Translations under genes and position numbers: made by a program
Part shown: positions 14,115-21,256 of the stretch, piece by piece
Layout: every line of letters starts with the position of its first letter
Numbering within the stretch: position 1 is the stretch's first letter
NCBI RefSeq assembly: GCF_002159555.1
Contig: NZ_NFIV01000002.1
Location: 1-64,000 of the forward strand
Direction of reading: 5' to 3'
DNA length: 64,000 nucleotides
From: Muribaculum sp. An289
GTDB taxonomy: Bacteria; Bacteroidota; Bacteroidia; Bacteroidales; UBA932
The notes under the pieces: model-generated
Databases searched by the model: none
What the model was told of the DNA's origin: nothing
The model's input: only the letters and a program-made list of their open reading frames with translations

Positions 14115-15008
14115 TCATGAAACCCCGAAAACATCCTCGGGGTGTGTTCCGAATGGCTCTATGTGGACGACTATGTCGTATACTTCCGGAATGCTTTGAC
14201 GGATGTTTTCTTCTATCCGGTTCGCCATGGAATGCGCCTGCGACAGGGTCAGGTTCCCGTCGGCTTCCACATCGAGGGTTATCATGTATTTTCCTCCAAT
14301 GCTCCTGGACCTTATCCTGTGCGGGTGGCTGACACCCTCGACTTTGGCAGTGGCATCGACGATTTTCTGGTAGACCGAGACATCCTTTACCCCGTCCATC
14401 AGTTCTACGTTCGAGTCCATGAAAATCCTTATCGCCGACCAGATTATGAAGCAGGATACGATGATTGCCGTGACCGAATCGAGTACGGGCATCCCGAGTA
14501 TGAACGAGAAGAACAGGCCTGCAAGTACGCTCAGCGAGATAATCATGTCGTTCCGCATGTTTATGCCGTTGGCTATGAGCATCTGCGACCCTGTCTTTTT
14601 CCCGACTTTCGTCTGGTAAAGGGACAGAAGCAGTTTGCAGATTATCGAGGCGGCCGTGACATAGATTGCAATCATCCCGGGCATGGGCCTCTGTCCTTCG
14701 GAAAACAGACTTTTAATGCCGGAGATGAACATTTCCGCGCCGGCGAAGAAAATCACCATCGAAAGTATTTTCGTGGCAATCGATTCGGCCTTTGCATAGC
14801 CGTAGGCGTATTTCCTGTTCGGCTTCTTCCCCATAATCTTGGCTGTGGCAATCATTACTATCGATATTGCCACGTCCGAAGCCGAGTCTATTCCGTCTCC
14901 TATGACGGCAATGCTCCCGCTGACGAAGCCGGTGACGATTTTCGCCGCTGCGAGTACCCCGTTGCCTATTGTGCTGACGTATGATGCCCTGACAATCTGC
15001 TTTTCCAT
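14115..15008 (-). CDS. cation diffusion facilitator transporter
   Basis: A 297-aa inner-membrane divalent cation/proton antiporter, probably exporting zinc, iron or manganese. Six hydrophobic segments are followed by a cytoplasmic C-terminal metal-binding domain (about 205-297, with HPHRIRSRSIGGKYMITLDV). Metal-site pairs are DGIDSASD (about 38-45) in helix 2 and the NGINMRND block (about 147-154) in helix 5, where the usual HHRSD-type pattern reads differently, so metal choice is uncertain. The ATG at 15008 is required to keep the first helix, and it lies 4 nt after a promoter core, suggesting a leaderless mRNA. Confidence 0.9.
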   Translation of the reverse strand: MEKQIVRASYVSTIGNGVLAAAKIVTGFVSGSIAVIGDGIDSASDVAISIVMIATAKIMGKKPNRKYAYGYAKAESIATKILSMVIFFAGAEMFISGIKSLFSEGQRPMPGMIAIYVTAASIICKLLLSLYQTKVGKKTGSQMLIANGINMRNDMIISLSVLAGLFFSFILGMPVLDSVTAIIVSCFIIWSAIRIFMDSNVELMDGVKDVSVYQKIVDATAKVEGVSHPHRIRSRSIGGKYMITLDVEADGNLTLSQAHSMANRIEENIRQSIPEVYDIVVHIEPFGTHPEDVFGVS

Positions 15009-15721: not shown

Positions 15722-17446
15722 CTATGGCCGTATTTCGGCTGCACCGCAGACCTCGGTGGATATTTCGCCTATCCAGCCCGCTTTGGCATTCACGCCCGTG
15801 CATATCTTGATGAAGTCGATGTATGCGAGCCTTGCCGGTTGGCCGTCGAAGGTTACAGCATCGCTGATTCTGAAACGGTTGGTACTTGCATTTCCTTCGG
15901 CCGATACCCCGTAGCCGTCGGCAATTCCGTCCCTGTCGACAGGACTGTAATTGTCGGCATATCCCCATTCGTATTCATGGTTTATCCAGTAGTTGGGGGA
16001 GGATTCCTCGGTATTTGGGGCGAGCCTTGTGCCTGTCAGAGTGTATGAGCCGGCCTTTACCCATCCGGGATAATAATAATCCTGCGTGTGTACCCCTGAA
16101 ATATAGTCTATGGTTCCGGTATTCCCGAGATTGTCTTCCCATTGTACCGGCATCTGCGGGGCCGATGGTCTGTAGTAAGTCACTTCATAGTCGTTAAGGG
16201 TTCCAGCTTTTCCGTATTCGCTTCCCTTCAGTTCGTACCAGATGTCATTCGGCAGGCCGTCCCCGTTTTCATCCTGCATCACCCAAACTATTCCGGGTTC
16301 TGAAGAACCCTGGTAGGAGTTTCCGGTAATGCCGAAATCGTAGTCTCCCGAATTTTCTATACTGTGGTCGAATCCTAAGACGATATATCCTCCGAAGCCG
16401 CCGAGCGAAACGTATTTTCCTTCACTCAGCCTGCTTTCGGCGTATGCTGTGGCTTCATCCATGGTTCCGGCATTGAAGTCCTCATTGATGAACTGTCCCG
16501 GTGCAGGCATGTATTCGTAAACTCTGTCCCACAGCAGATTTCCGGTGGCAGGCCTTTTATATGTGCCTTCAGGCGGGCATACTATGACTGCAAGTGTCTT
16601 GCTGACAGTCGTATATGAGTTAGACATCGTAATGACGGCCGTATATGTGTCCTGTTCCGAGGCAGTGTATTCCGGAGCGGTGAAAACATATTGCGGCGCA
16701 TCGGAAGACTGTACTTCCTCGCCATTTATTTTCCAGGTATAGACAGCGTCTTCCGCGTTCTTTATGCCGAAAGGCACAAGCCTGATGCGCCTGCCTGAGG
16801 AAACATAGTACGTATCTTTTTCGAAGTTCCATTCGAAAGGTATGTCGGCCGGGTCAAGCACATTGACTGTGAATGATTCGGAGTCGCTCCCGTCCTCATT
16901 GCCTACCGTGAGCGACATGGAATATGAGCCGATTCTTTCCCCTGTGAAAACATAACTCTTCTCCGAGGATACTTCTTTTCCGTCCAGAATCCATGAAAAT
17001 GCGGCGTTCTCACCGTTTTTCACGACAGGAACGATTTCAAGCGAGCCTCCGACAGGGATATTGTATCCCCCATCGGGAACATTCAGCGATATTACTGGAA
17101 CCTGCCGGCTTGCCACGTCTATGCGTATTTCTTCCGAATCGCTTCCGGAATTGTTCGTTACCGTCAGCATTATATAGACACTTCCTGGCTCTTCGAAGGT
17201 GTGCGAGAAGATTTTATCGGTTGATAGCAGAATCCCATCCGACTCCCATTCGAAAGAGGCGCCCTCGCCGTTTTCCACCGCAGGCTCTATCGTTATCTCC
17301 TTTCCGGCCTTTGCCGTGTAGATGCTTTCGGCAAATTTTATTACCGGAGGAAGGCCTCTCTTTTCGGTGCACGACAGTGACGTAAATACTGGAACGGACA
17401 GGAGCAAGGCCTTTATAATGAATGCTATGTGGTTTGACTGTTTCAT
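15722..17446 (-). CDS. PKD-repeat surface lipoprotein of the B12 locus
   Basis: A 574-aa protein with a lipoprotein signal (SLSC, Cys about 26). Three Ig/PKD-like repeats follow (about 30-115, 116-200 and 205-290), each with a W-centred strand (FEWESDGILLST, FSWILDGKEVSS, YTWKINGEEVQS) and a closing YTMSL/YIMLTV-type strand. The C-terminal 280 residues form a separate domain with an acidic metal-like loop (DENGDGLPNDIWYELKGSEY) and DRDGIADGYG. It is the last gene behind the cobalamin riboswitch, BtuB and the BtuG-like protein. I infer a surface-exposed role in binding cobalamin, a cobamide-bearing complex or a scaffold; no direct evidence. Confidence 0.75.
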   Translation of the reverse strand: MKQSNHIAFIIKALLLSVPVFTSLSCTEKRGLPPVIKFAESIYTAKAGKEITIEPAVENGEGASFEWESDGILLSTDKIFSHTFEEPGSVYIMLTVTNNSGSDSEEIRIDVASRQVPVISLNVPDGGYNIPVGGSLEIVPVVKNGENAAFSWILDGKEVSSEKSYVFTGERIGSYSMSLTVGNEDGSDSESFTVNVLDPADIPFEWNFEKDTYYVSSGRRIRLVPFGIKNAEDAVYTWKINGEEVQSSDAPQYVFTAPEYTASEQDTYTAVITMSNSYTTVSKTLAVIVCPPEGTYKRPATGNLLWDRVYEYMPAPGQFINEDFNAGTMDEATAYAESRLSEGKYVSLGGFGGYIVLGFDHSIENSGDYDFGITGNSYQGSSEPGIVWVMQDENGDGLPNDIWYELKGSEYGKAGTLNDYEVTYYRPSAPQMPVQWEDNLGNTGTIDYISGVHTQDYYYPGWVKAGSYTLTGTRLAPNTEESSPNYWINHEYEWGYADNYSPVDRDGIADGYGVSAEGNASTNRFRISDAVTFDGQPARLAYIDFIKICTGVNAKAGWIGEISTEVCGAAEIRP

Positions 17447-17530
17447 TTTTCTGTAATCGTATATTTTTTCTAAACGTATATTTCTGCTAATCGTATATTC
17501 CGGTAAACGTTTATAAATGTTTAAAAACGG

Positions 17531-18694
17531 TTATTTCAGGGAATGTGTGGTGAAAACGATGTGTGCTGGGATGTCCCCTGTCGTGACGGCCCATTTCCAG
17601 CGGCCGTCGAGGGTGAAGCAGTGGAGGGTTCCCGGGCTTACGTAATCCTTTGCATCCGTCACGAAAAATTCTCCTGAGCTGCGGTTTACGGCTATCCCGT
17701 ATGGAATCCTTATCTGGTTTTCCATGCCGTCTTTAATGAAATTGCGGGTTACGATGCTCTTTGTGGCCGTGTTCCATATCGCGTAAGATATTTCATTCCT
17801 GCCCGTAATGTAATTGTACTCGGAACTGATGACGAAGAGGGAGTCTCCGGCAAGCGCCATTGAGCTGTTGGGCAGGAGGTCGAGCGTATCCGTCACCCTG
17901 TCCGTCCGCGTATCGATTATGAAAGTCTTGGATTGGATGGTATAATGGTCTCCCCGCGAGGATACGTAAAGGTTTCCGTAATTGTCCGGCTCTATCTTGT
18001 CGAGGTTTATGCCGACGTTTATCTTGTACATTTCTTCGAATGTGTCGAGATTTATGACAGAAATAGTGCTGTCGTAATCCGGTGCCCGGTATCCGCCGGA
18101 ATTGGCGACATACAGTTTGTTCCCGACTACCGCCATTTCTTCGGGCTGGTAACCCACTATGCACGAATCGACTATCCGGAGCGAGGCCGTGTCTATCTTT
18201 GCGACGAAGCCTATCCTCGCATCGGTCGCTATTTCGACGGGCCCGGCGTATGCGCTTACGTATGCGTAGCCATCGTTGAACGCGACATAGCGGCAGTTAG
18301 GTATGGCTATTTTGGAAAGATGTTCGGCGGTAGAGGCATCCATGACCTCCACGTAGTTTGAACAGTTTATCACCGCCCACAGTTTCCCACCGTATATTTT
18401 CAGGTCGTTCCCGACATCGCCGAGGTCCTTCACTTCGTTGGGATTGCGTTCTCCGTAAATATTCCTGTGGTAGGTGCCGTCTTCATACCCGTAATAATCC
18501 AGGGAGGCCTTGTTGCTGCCCATATTCCCTTCGTTCAGCAGGAAAAACCCCCTTATGTCTCCGCTTATACTGTCCCACGGGTTTATGACGATTTCTTCGC
18601 CCGGCAGGATATAGTCCGGTTTCCTGCATGAGAAAACTACAAGCATTATCGCCGTGGCGGCGCATATTCTGATGAAACCTGTTTTCCTTCGCAT
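17531..18694 (-). CDS. btuG: BtuG-like surface cobalamin-binding beta-propeller
   Basis: A 387-aa lipoprotein (FSCRKPD, Cys23) with a YncE/DUF5074-type beta-propeller. Repeating blade segments include GKLWAVINCSNYVEVMDASTAEHLSKI, NKLYVANSGG and STISVINLDTFEEMYKI. In gut Bacteroides the family BtuG is a surface lipoprotein that binds vitamin B12 extremely tightly and caps the outer-membrane transporter BtuB. The assignment rests on fold type, lipoprotein signal and position directly after btuB under a cobalamin riboswitch. The gap to btuB is 83 nt and to the PKD gene 84 nt, so all three are probably one transcript repressed when B12 is plentiful. Confidence 0.85.
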   Translation of the reverse strand: MRRKTGFIRICAATAIMLVVFSCRKPDYILPGEEIVINPWDSISGDIRGFFLLNEGNMGSNKASLDYYGYEDGTYHRNIYGERNPNEVKDLGDVGNDLKIYGGKLWAVINCSNYVEVMDASTAEHLSKIAIPNCRYVAFNDGYAYVSAYAGPVEIATDARIGFVAKIDTASLRIVDSCIVGYQPEEMAVVGNKLYVANSGGYRAPDYDSTISVINLDTFEEMYKINVGINLDKIEPDNYGNLYVSSRGDHYTIQSKTFIIDTRTDRVTDTLDLLPNSSMALAGDSLFVISSEYNYITGRNEISYAIWNTATKSIVTRNFIKDGMENQIRIPYGIAVNRSSGEFFVTDAKDYVSPGTLHCFTLDGRWKWAVTTGDIPAHIVFTTHSLK

Positions 18695-18777: not shown

Positions 18778-20892
18778 TCAGAAACTCAGGCTCAGTGTCA
18801 GCCGGAAATTCGTCCCTGGCATCGGGTACCATTTGACTACTTCGTACTGCTGGTCGAATATGTTGTTCACGTCCAGGGCGGCCCCGAGTTCCATCCCGTG
18901 CGGCAGGGAGAAGGTCTTGGCAAGCGAAAGATCGCTGGTATACCAAGGCTGGATATAATTCACCGGTATGTTCCCTCCCAACATCCATCTTTCTCCGGTA
19001 TAGATGAAACTGTAGTTGAGGCTCCAGGTCCTGTATGTGCAGTTAAGCACCGCCGAACCGCTGTGTACCGGGACGTACGGAATCTGGTCTCCGTAATGGT
19101 CCTCCACTCCGGGCCCGAAGTCCCCGCCTTTCTTCTCTTCGGTAAAATCCTGGGCCTTCTGGAACGTGTACGAGAGCCTTGCCGTAATCCCTACTTCCCC
19201 GAATCTGAACGAAGGCGCCAGGCTTACGTCCACGCCACGTATTTCAACATATCCGAGGTTTACCATGGTCCAAACCAGCTGGTTGGAAGTCGGGGTGGCT
19301 ATGATTTTGTCCTTCACTGTGTTGTAATACCCGTCCGCACTTGCTTCGATGCCGGCGAACACGCCTTTCGCGAAGCCCTTCCTGTATGCGATTCCCAAAT
19401 CGTACTGGTCCGTGTATTCGGGCTTCAGGTTCCTGCTTCCCGCCTGGACGTAATAAAGGTCGTTGAATGTCGGCATCCGAAATATTTTCTTATAGAATGC
19501 CCTGAATGTCAGGTCCGTCTTTTTCCACGGCCTGTATGAAACCACTGCCGCAGGGGCGAAGATGTTCTTGTCTTTTGCCGGTTCTATGTCCTTGCGTTTG
19601 CCCATGTCGTGTACGTACGTGTAGAGCAGGCTTGCCTGCAAATCCAGTCCGCAGTCGAGGTTGAACGATGTCGCGAGCGCGGCAAGCCCGGTAATCCTCC
19701 GCGGCTGTATGAAGTTGGCATTGAACATGTCGCTTCCTTTCGCATCGAGGCTGTTCCATTGCAGGTCCGCTGAAATGTTGATATGCCAGAAGTAGAACGG
19801 GGAAAACAGGTGCGAGGTGGTAAAATACAGTTCCTGCTGCCAGTAGTGGTTGTCCATCGGCTGCACCGTGCTTTCCGGCGGCATTACGTAGTTCATGTAA
19901 TCGTTGGAATACTTGGCCCTGAAGCGGTAGCTGTACGATTTGCTGACCGTCTGTGTCAGGGAAGATTGCAGGAAAATGTTCCTGTCCTTCTGCCTGTCTT
20001 CGTTCAGCAGCGATATTCCGTAGTCCTCCTTTACCGCCGCTCCCGGATAGCCCCTGTCCGAGTTGTAAAAATATATTTTCGCATCCCAGTCGCCTCCCCT
20101 GATTTTTCCGAATACGGCGGCTTCGGCCCTTATCGAGAACACGTCCCCGTTCCGCCGCACTTCGGTGGTGTCGTATCCGCCTCCGTCAGGTCCTGTCTTG
20201 CTGTAACGGAATTTATACCTTCCGGAAGTGTTCATCACTTCGGCGTTTACTGAAGTGCTTATGCTTTCACTGATTTTATGGTCCCAGGTGAACGAACCGT
20301 CTATGAGGTCGAAGGACCCTGTCCTTATCTTAAAATTGAAATTGTAGTTTTTGTCCGTGAAAACAGGCCGTCTGCTCGTCATGTAAAAGGCTGCCGCGGA
20401 AGCAAAATCCTTTGCCGACTGGAAAATGTCGCTCTTCTGTCCGTTATATACCGAAACGGCTTCCATGTTGTCCAAAGAAAATTTTCCGAGGTCTACCGTC
20501 CCGTTCTGTGCGTTCCCTATCTGTATCCCGTCATAGAAGACACCGACATGCTGGCTCCCGAGGCTTCTGACATTGATGGTCTTGAGGCCTCCGATGCCCC
20601 CGTAGTCCTTGATCTGCACTCCCGAAAAATATCTGAGGGCATCGGTGACTGAGTTGCTCCCGAGCCTTTTCAGCTGCTCTCCCCTCAAAGTCTGTGACGG
20701 GATTATTTCTGTTCTCCTGACGGCGGTCAATGTTGCCTGCCCTAAAGTGTCCGTCACGATTGCGAGGCTGTCGGGAAACGGATACTCCTGCATGCCGTCG
20801 TCAAGTGGCGCACGCATCGGGGCGGCTCCGGTGGCGGCCGCTGTCCAGAAAAATATGATTGCCGATAATAATACTGTCTTCTTCATTGCCAT
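18778..20892 (-). CDS. btuB: TonB-dependent cobalamin receptor BtuB
   Basis: A 704-aa outer-membrane receptor: signal peptide (about 1-23), plug domain (about 40-170; GSNSVTDALRYFSGVQIKDYGG, SLGSQHVGVFYDGIQIGNAQNG) and a 22-strand barrel ending in F. A TonB-box-like segment lies after the signal (TLGQATLTAVRRTEI). Imports cobalamin to the periplasm with TonB energy. Start choice: ATG at 20892 (MAMKKT) or 20886 (MKKT); the longer frame to 20952 runs into the riboswitch. The cobalamin riboswitch 59 nt upstream identifies the substrate. No btuCDF genes occur in this window. Confidence 0.92.
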   Translation of the reverse strand: MAMKKTVLLSAIIFFWTAAATGAAPMRAPLDDGMQEYPFPDSLAIVTDTLGQATLTAVRRTEIIPSQTLRGEQLKRLGSNSVTDALRYFSGVQIKDYGGIGGLKTINVRSLGSQHVGVFYDGIQIGNAQNGTVDLGKFSLDNMEAVSVYNGQKSDIFQSAKDFASAAAFYMTSRRPVFTDKNYNFNFKIRTGSFDLIDGSFTWDHKISESISTSVNAEVMNTSGRYKFRYSKTGPDGGGYDTTEVRRNGDVFSIRAEAAVFGKIRGGDWDAKIYFYNSDRGYPGAAVKEDYGISLLNEDRQKDRNIFLQSSLTQTVSKSYSYRFRAKYSNDYMNYVMPPESTVQPMDNHYWQQELYFTTSHLFSPFYFWHINISADLQWNSLDAKGSDMFNANFIQPRRITGLAALATSFNLDCGLDLQASLLYTYVHDMGKRKDIEPAKDKNIFAPAAVVSYRPWKKTDLTFRAFYKKIFRMPTFNDLYYVQAGSRNLKPEYTDQYDLGIAYRKGFAKGVFAGIEASADGYYNTVKDKIIATPTSNQLVWTMVNLGYVEIRGVDVSLAPSFRFGEVGITARLSYTFQKAQDFTEEKKGGDFGPGVEDHYGDQIPYVPVHSGSAVLNCTYRTWSLNYSFIYTGERWMLGGNIPVNYIQPWYTSDLSLAKTFSLPHGMELGAALDVNNIFDQQYEVVKWYPMPGTNFRLTLSLSF

Positions 20893-20950
20893 TATCCTTT
20901 CCCATTCTCCGCAGGAATCACGAAACCGTACATACGGTCTCTGAACAAAC

Positions 20951-21132
20951 ATGCAACGGCAGGTCTCCTGGCTCGTCCCGGCCGCAACGCCTTCCCATCG
21001 TTCTGACAGTGGCTGTCGAGTGTGCGGCCTTGCCCTTTTGCAGGGCGGGACTTACAGTAGCGGGAACTGCATCCGGATTTCACGGATTTCCCTTTTATTC
21101 GGCGACTCCGGCCGGAGCCTCCGAAACCGTTA
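20951..21132 (-). promoter_or_regulatory. cobalamin (AdoCbl) riboswitch
   Basis: Read on the minus strand, the conserved cobalamin aptamer blocks occur in order: GGGAAATCCGTGAAATCCGG, then GCAGTTCCCGCTACTGTAA, then the P-stem CCCGCCCTGCAAAAGGGC, then GCCACTGTC...GGGAAGGC and the B12 box GAGCCAGGAGACCTGCC at about 20977-20961. It sits in the leader of btuB, so B12 binding should shut off btuB and probably the two downstream lipoprotein genes, by hiding the ribosome site or ending transcription. Confidence 0.96.
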
Positions 21133-21138
21133 CGGTGG

Positions 21139-21170
21139 GCAAAGATATGCAAAAATGCAATAATGAACAA
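21139..21170 (-). promoter_or_regulatory. promoter of the cobalamin uptake operon
   Basis: On the minus strand TTG (21170-21168), a 20-nt spacer, TATCTTTGC (21147-21139). The predicted start near 21132 coincides with the first base-paired segment of the riboswitch. Confidence 0.75.
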
Positions 21171-21256
21171 AAATTTCAAACGGCTTCTCAAAAGTCCGGA
21201 ATAATTTCGCATATTTGCATGAATATTCCTTAATCGTGATTATTCCTTTTATTTTT

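Follow-up and report, generated by a model that had tools for sequence, protein, structure and literature searches.

A predicted BtuH lipoprotein of the PKD type encoded behind btuB and btuG in a cobalamin-riboswitch operon of Muribaculum sp. An289

In Muribaculum sp. An289, the third gene downstream of a cobalamin riboswitch almost certainly encodes a PKD-type (BtuH2-type) BtuH lipoprotein that is produced alongside BtuB and BtuG to capture vitamin B12. The gene lies in a window of 64,000 nucleotides (contig NZ_NFIV01000002.1, positions 1 to 64,000), which is the whole stretch of DNA analyzed here, and the features of the locus are collected in Table 1. In the initial annotation, the gene was placed third after a cobalamin riboswitch, BtuB, and a BtuG-like propeller; the coordinates, the RF00174 score, and the profile and structure matches bear this out. 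The product was also presented as a possible new member of the B12 capture machinery. It does belong to this machinery, but not as a partner beyond BtuH: it is BtuH itself, an ordinary, well-supported member of an already known family.

Table 1. Features of the btuB-btuG-btuH locus, in window coordinates.
Feature	Coordinates	Strand	Description or basis
btuH ORF	15722..17446	-	574 aa, ATG start; lipoprotein, Cys26, three PKD/Ig modules, C-terminal H-domain
H-domain, residues 297-574, predicted B12-binding domain	15725..16558	-	identity to BtuH2 and TM to 7BIZ
btuG-like beta-propeller lipoprotein	17531..18694	-	DUF5074, E 3e-17
btuB, TonB-dependent B12 transporter	18778..20952	-	TonB-B12 model, E 4e-32
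Cobalamin riboswitch aptamer RF00174	20941..21146	-	90.3 bits, E 5e-21
Promoter match TTTG-N20-TATCTTTG	21140..21171	-	directly upstream of the riboswitch

On the minus strand, the riboswitch is followed by btuB, btuG, and btuH, with intergenic gaps of 83 nt between btuB and btuG and 84 nt between btuG and btuH. As listed, btuB shares its first 12 nt with the riboswitch, which makes an internal ATG (..MAMKK..) the probable start. The best structure match of BtuB is BtuB1 (8blw_A, E 3.5e-120), and the best non-identical structures for the BtuG-like propeller are BtuG-type (8blw_B, E 2e-38). The operon encodes neither btuL nor btuJ. Read from the sequence, the btuG and btuH genes of Candidatus Merdivivens pullicola apparently overlap by ATGA.

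The pattern TTTG-N20-TATCTTTG, which we take to be a Bacteroidetes-type promoter, has eight matches in the window versus 1.28 expected. No match falls within btuB-btuG-btuH, and the next minus-strand match downstream, at 15045-15013, sits right before a cation-efflux gene. Given a single promoter match before the riboswitch and none inside the three genes, the sequence suggests that btuH most likely shares a transcript with btuB and btuG and is under riboswitch control. The scan gave no sign of separate btuH transcription; such separate transcription was part of what the initial annotation had said would refute its reading. Scans for consensus sigma-70 promoters and terminators stayed at chance level, so the case for an operon draws on how the genes are spaced and on the Bacteroidetes-type promoter pattern.

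Two further observations concern the flanks of btuH. The cation-efflux (CDF) gene downstream, at 14115-15008(-), has its own promoter match, and a similar CDF gene apparently also follows btuH in M. pullicola (L032). The gap between btuG and btuH carries three copies of AAATATACGWTTA at 17-nt spacing (17454-17500(-); three matches versus 0.15 expected in the window). We weighed whether this repeat could serve as a promoter or regulatory element within the operon and set the idea aside: no promoter match was found there, and the triple repeat could not be seen in those Merdivivens relatives that were inspected.

A PDB sequence search with the 574-aa protein retrieved 7BIZ (E 1e-110, residues 104-568) and the H-domain of 8BLW chain B (E 2e-55, residues 299-569). 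The former is BtuH2 (BT_1956) of B. thetaiotaomicron bound to cyanocobalamin, and the latter is BtuG1, which carries a BtuH domain as its C-terminal extension (PMC8941943, PMC10404256). The C-domain is 56% identical to BtuH2 (148/265) and 47% identical to the H-domain of BtuG1 (119/252). The domain plan first described for this protein, three Ig/PKD modules and a C-domain of about 280 residues, holds: PKD_3 (Pfam) matches in three stretches (E 2e-44), corresponding to three PKD-like modules, and the C-domain spans ~275-278 residues. Searched alone against Pfam, the 278-aa C-domain matched no family; likewise, the btuH product had no match to the DUF4465/PF14717 domain, and PADLOC and PHROGs returned no matches. 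NCBIfam matches to polycystin, a LapB repeat, and decaheme cytochrome were discarded as repeat cross-matches far below the cut-off. A fusion of the BtuG propeller to the H-domain is absent here, the two being separate ORFs.

AlphaFold modeled the full protein with a mean pLDDT of 89.7 and a pTM of 0.83. The best PDB matches of this model (Foldseek) were 7BIZ and then 8BLW, with many Ig proteins also found; its rmsd to 7BIZ, about 16-17 Å, probably reflects inter-domain angles. Modeled alone (pLDDT 90.4, pTM 0.91), the C-domain superposes on 7BIZ with a TM of 0.93 and an rmsd of 2.3 Å and on 8BLW with a TM of 0.85; at E <= 0.001, it matched nothing in the PDB besides these BtuH domains. Comparing the predicted C-domain with BtuH, as had been suggested at the outset, thus returned the BtuH2 fold.

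The ligand site is similarly well preserved. BtuH2 makes polar contacts to B12 through Gln333, Asn399, His476, Tyr510, Trp511, and Trp577 and van der Waals contacts to the lower ligand through Phe401 and Leu578 (PMC8941943); its numbering equals the 7BIZ chain position plus 100, as checked at all eight residues. The six polar contacts are all kept here (Q318, N376, H453, Y486, W487, and W558), and the lower-ligand contacts are changed conservatively to Y378 (F to Y) and I559 (L to I). All 37 full-length homologues keep Q318, N376, and H453, followed in conservation by W487 (36/37), W558 (34/37), and Y486 (27/37); invariant positions of the family concentrate in the H-domain. Both acidic loops singled out in the initial annotation are present. 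The first, DENGDGLPND (392-401), aligns with DINGNGLPDD of BtuH2, and its D392, N394, and D401, together with E405, are invariant among the 37 homologues; we infer that this loop is one of the two BtuH2-type calcium sites. In the second, DRDGIADGYG (504-513), only D504 (35/37) and R505 (31/37) are conserved, the following positions vary, and residues 508-518 have a pLDDT below 50 in the model. Mostly variable and bordering a disordered stretch, this loop was dropped as a functional site. Overall, the operon, domain, and acidic-loop features are not a chance similarity. The idea of a partner beyond BtuH is wrong because the domain order of BtuH2, the level of H-domain identity, the six polar ligand residues, and the fold are all those of BtuH.

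The H-domain is present in 43 of 119 related genomes. We collected 80 loci from GTDB genomes of related Bacteroidales: 66 encode PKD modules with the H-domain and 14 the H-domain alone. BtuB and/or BtuG occur in the fetched stretch at 72 of the 80 loci, many of the rest being cut by contig ends, and a DUF4465 gene is found at 54. A cobalamin riboswitch was seen in 18 of 20 neighborhoods inspected in relatives; in the remaining two (L035, L046), the sequence breaks off inside btuB. At five loci (L035, L036, L038, L042, and L045), lipoproteins that join a DUF4988 stalk-like part to a DUF4465 domain are encoded beside BtuH in cobalamin-riboswitch operons. At the second BtuH locus of Candidatus Merdivivens pullistercoris (G002, L034), btuG comes straight after the riboswitch, without an intervening btuB, and is followed by btuH and a gene for a DUF4988-DUF5074 lipoprotein. 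A literature search turned up no paper that treats BtuH together with Alistipes.

The lipobox Cys26 is invariant in the 37 homologues. It is followed here by T-E-K-R, which lacks the acidic pair found in most relatives and in the known surface-export signals, K-(D/E)2 and SDDDD (PMC5080379). Surface exposure of the btuH product is therefore supported by homology, not by motif, and by analogy it is likely. The weak export motif, taken with the lack of BtuJ and BtuL in the operon, could instead be read to mean that BtuH in this genus faces the periplasm from the outer membrane and stores B12 there instead of trapping it at the cell surface, which we regard as very unlikely.

Very unlikely, too, is a BtuH-derived protein that has lost B12 binding and serves BtuB-BtuG as a scaffold or partner. 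Related lipoproteins can indeed be non-binders, as in the case of BtuK2 and BtuL of B. thetaiotaomicron (PMC12751083), but such a role fits poorly with the retention of every polar ligand residue and with an H-domain that concentrates the invariant positions; moreover, neither BtuB2 nor BtuG2 was robustly pulled down with BtuH2 (PMC8941943). Of the two roles first offered for this protein, binder or scaffold, the first is very probable and the second unnecessary. An unrelated PKD surface protein (e.g., a glycan binder or adhesin) behind btuG by chance is barely conceivable: surface proteins often carry PKD/Ig modules, and the full-length model matched many Ig proteins, yet the C-domain matches BtuH structures only and accompanies B12 uptake genes and riboswitches across Bacteroidales.

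For a B12-binding BtuH, B. thetaiotaomicron provides the reference. In SPR, its BtuH2 showed picomolar affinity for B12, and the protein is required both to grow at 0.04-0.1 nM B12 and for fitness in mice (PMC8941943); a later study likewise found binding, the Kd by stopped flow being 23 nM (PMC12751083). By analogy with BtuH2, B12 binding, affinity, and regulation would be similar here. At low intracellular cobamide, btuH would be made together with BtuB and BtuG, the riboswitch presumably acting as an off-switch, as in its family. Lipid-anchored at Cys26, BtuH would use its three PKD/Ig modules to hold the H-domain off the outer membrane; the H-domain would bind B12 at its corrin ring and nucleotide loop, a calcium ion probably being bound near the phosphate site. 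The captured B12 would then be passed on to the BtuB-BtuG transporter. This hand-over from BtuH to BtuB-BtuG has been proposed (PMC10404256), and, as co-immunoprecipitation in B. thetaiotaomicron detected no robust BtuH2-BtuG2 association (PMC8941943), it stands as a proposal only, for which the present locus is no better test case than B. thetaiotaomicron.

Host traits were drawn from single-family searches of the genome, which found one BtuH, one DUF5074 gene, and one FecCD permease adjoining a periplasmic binding protein, and neither CbiC nor a MetH activation domain. A 711-codon frame with a B12-binding domain may, at a guess from its length, be methylmalonyl-CoA mutase. These traits are consistent with a B12 scavenger, a reading based on one absent marker (CbiC), short of a full pathway analysis. 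The same genome has two other cobalamin riboswitches. One (G000 C1:244141-244365(-)) precedes a lone 480-aa lipoprotein (L060:10581-12020(-)) that is DUF4988-like at its N-terminus and ends in a DUF4465 (BtuJ-type) domain (E 3e-39). The other (G000 C7:29252-29449(+)) precedes an apparent nrdD-nrdG pair, identified by eye (L059:5558-8243(+)); an anaerobic ribonucleotide reductase behind a cobalamin riboswitch is a known B12-dependent isozyme switch. A second DUF4465 lipoprotein (L145:4093-4818(+), 242 aa, E 2e-48) had no cobalamin riboswitch found nearby.

The assignment extends an experimentally grounded B12-capture annotation to a poorly known Bacteroidales genus, where a BtuH domain without a Pfam match is still recognizable from its conserved ligand residues. 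Among known systems, BtuJ/DUF4465 lipoproteins are also lipoprotein B12 binders, often encoded beside BtuH in relatives, but they are built on another domain, for which the protein here gave no match. BtuG1/BtuGH (BT_1490, 8BLW chain B) has a homologous H-domain (47% identity); unlike in Muribaculum, where BtuG and BtuH are separate genes, it is fused to the BtuG propeller, and it carries Thr at the Tyr510 position. Compared with BtuH2 (BT_1956, 7BIZ), the Muribaculum protein has 56% identity in the H-domain and lower identity elsewhere, Y378/I559 instead of Phe401/Leu578, a weak export motif, and an operon that lacks btuL and btuJ. In turn, the two lipoproteins share three PKD modules and an H-domain, the six polar B12 contacts, the same predicted fold, and a cobalamin-riboswitch operon with btuB and btuG.
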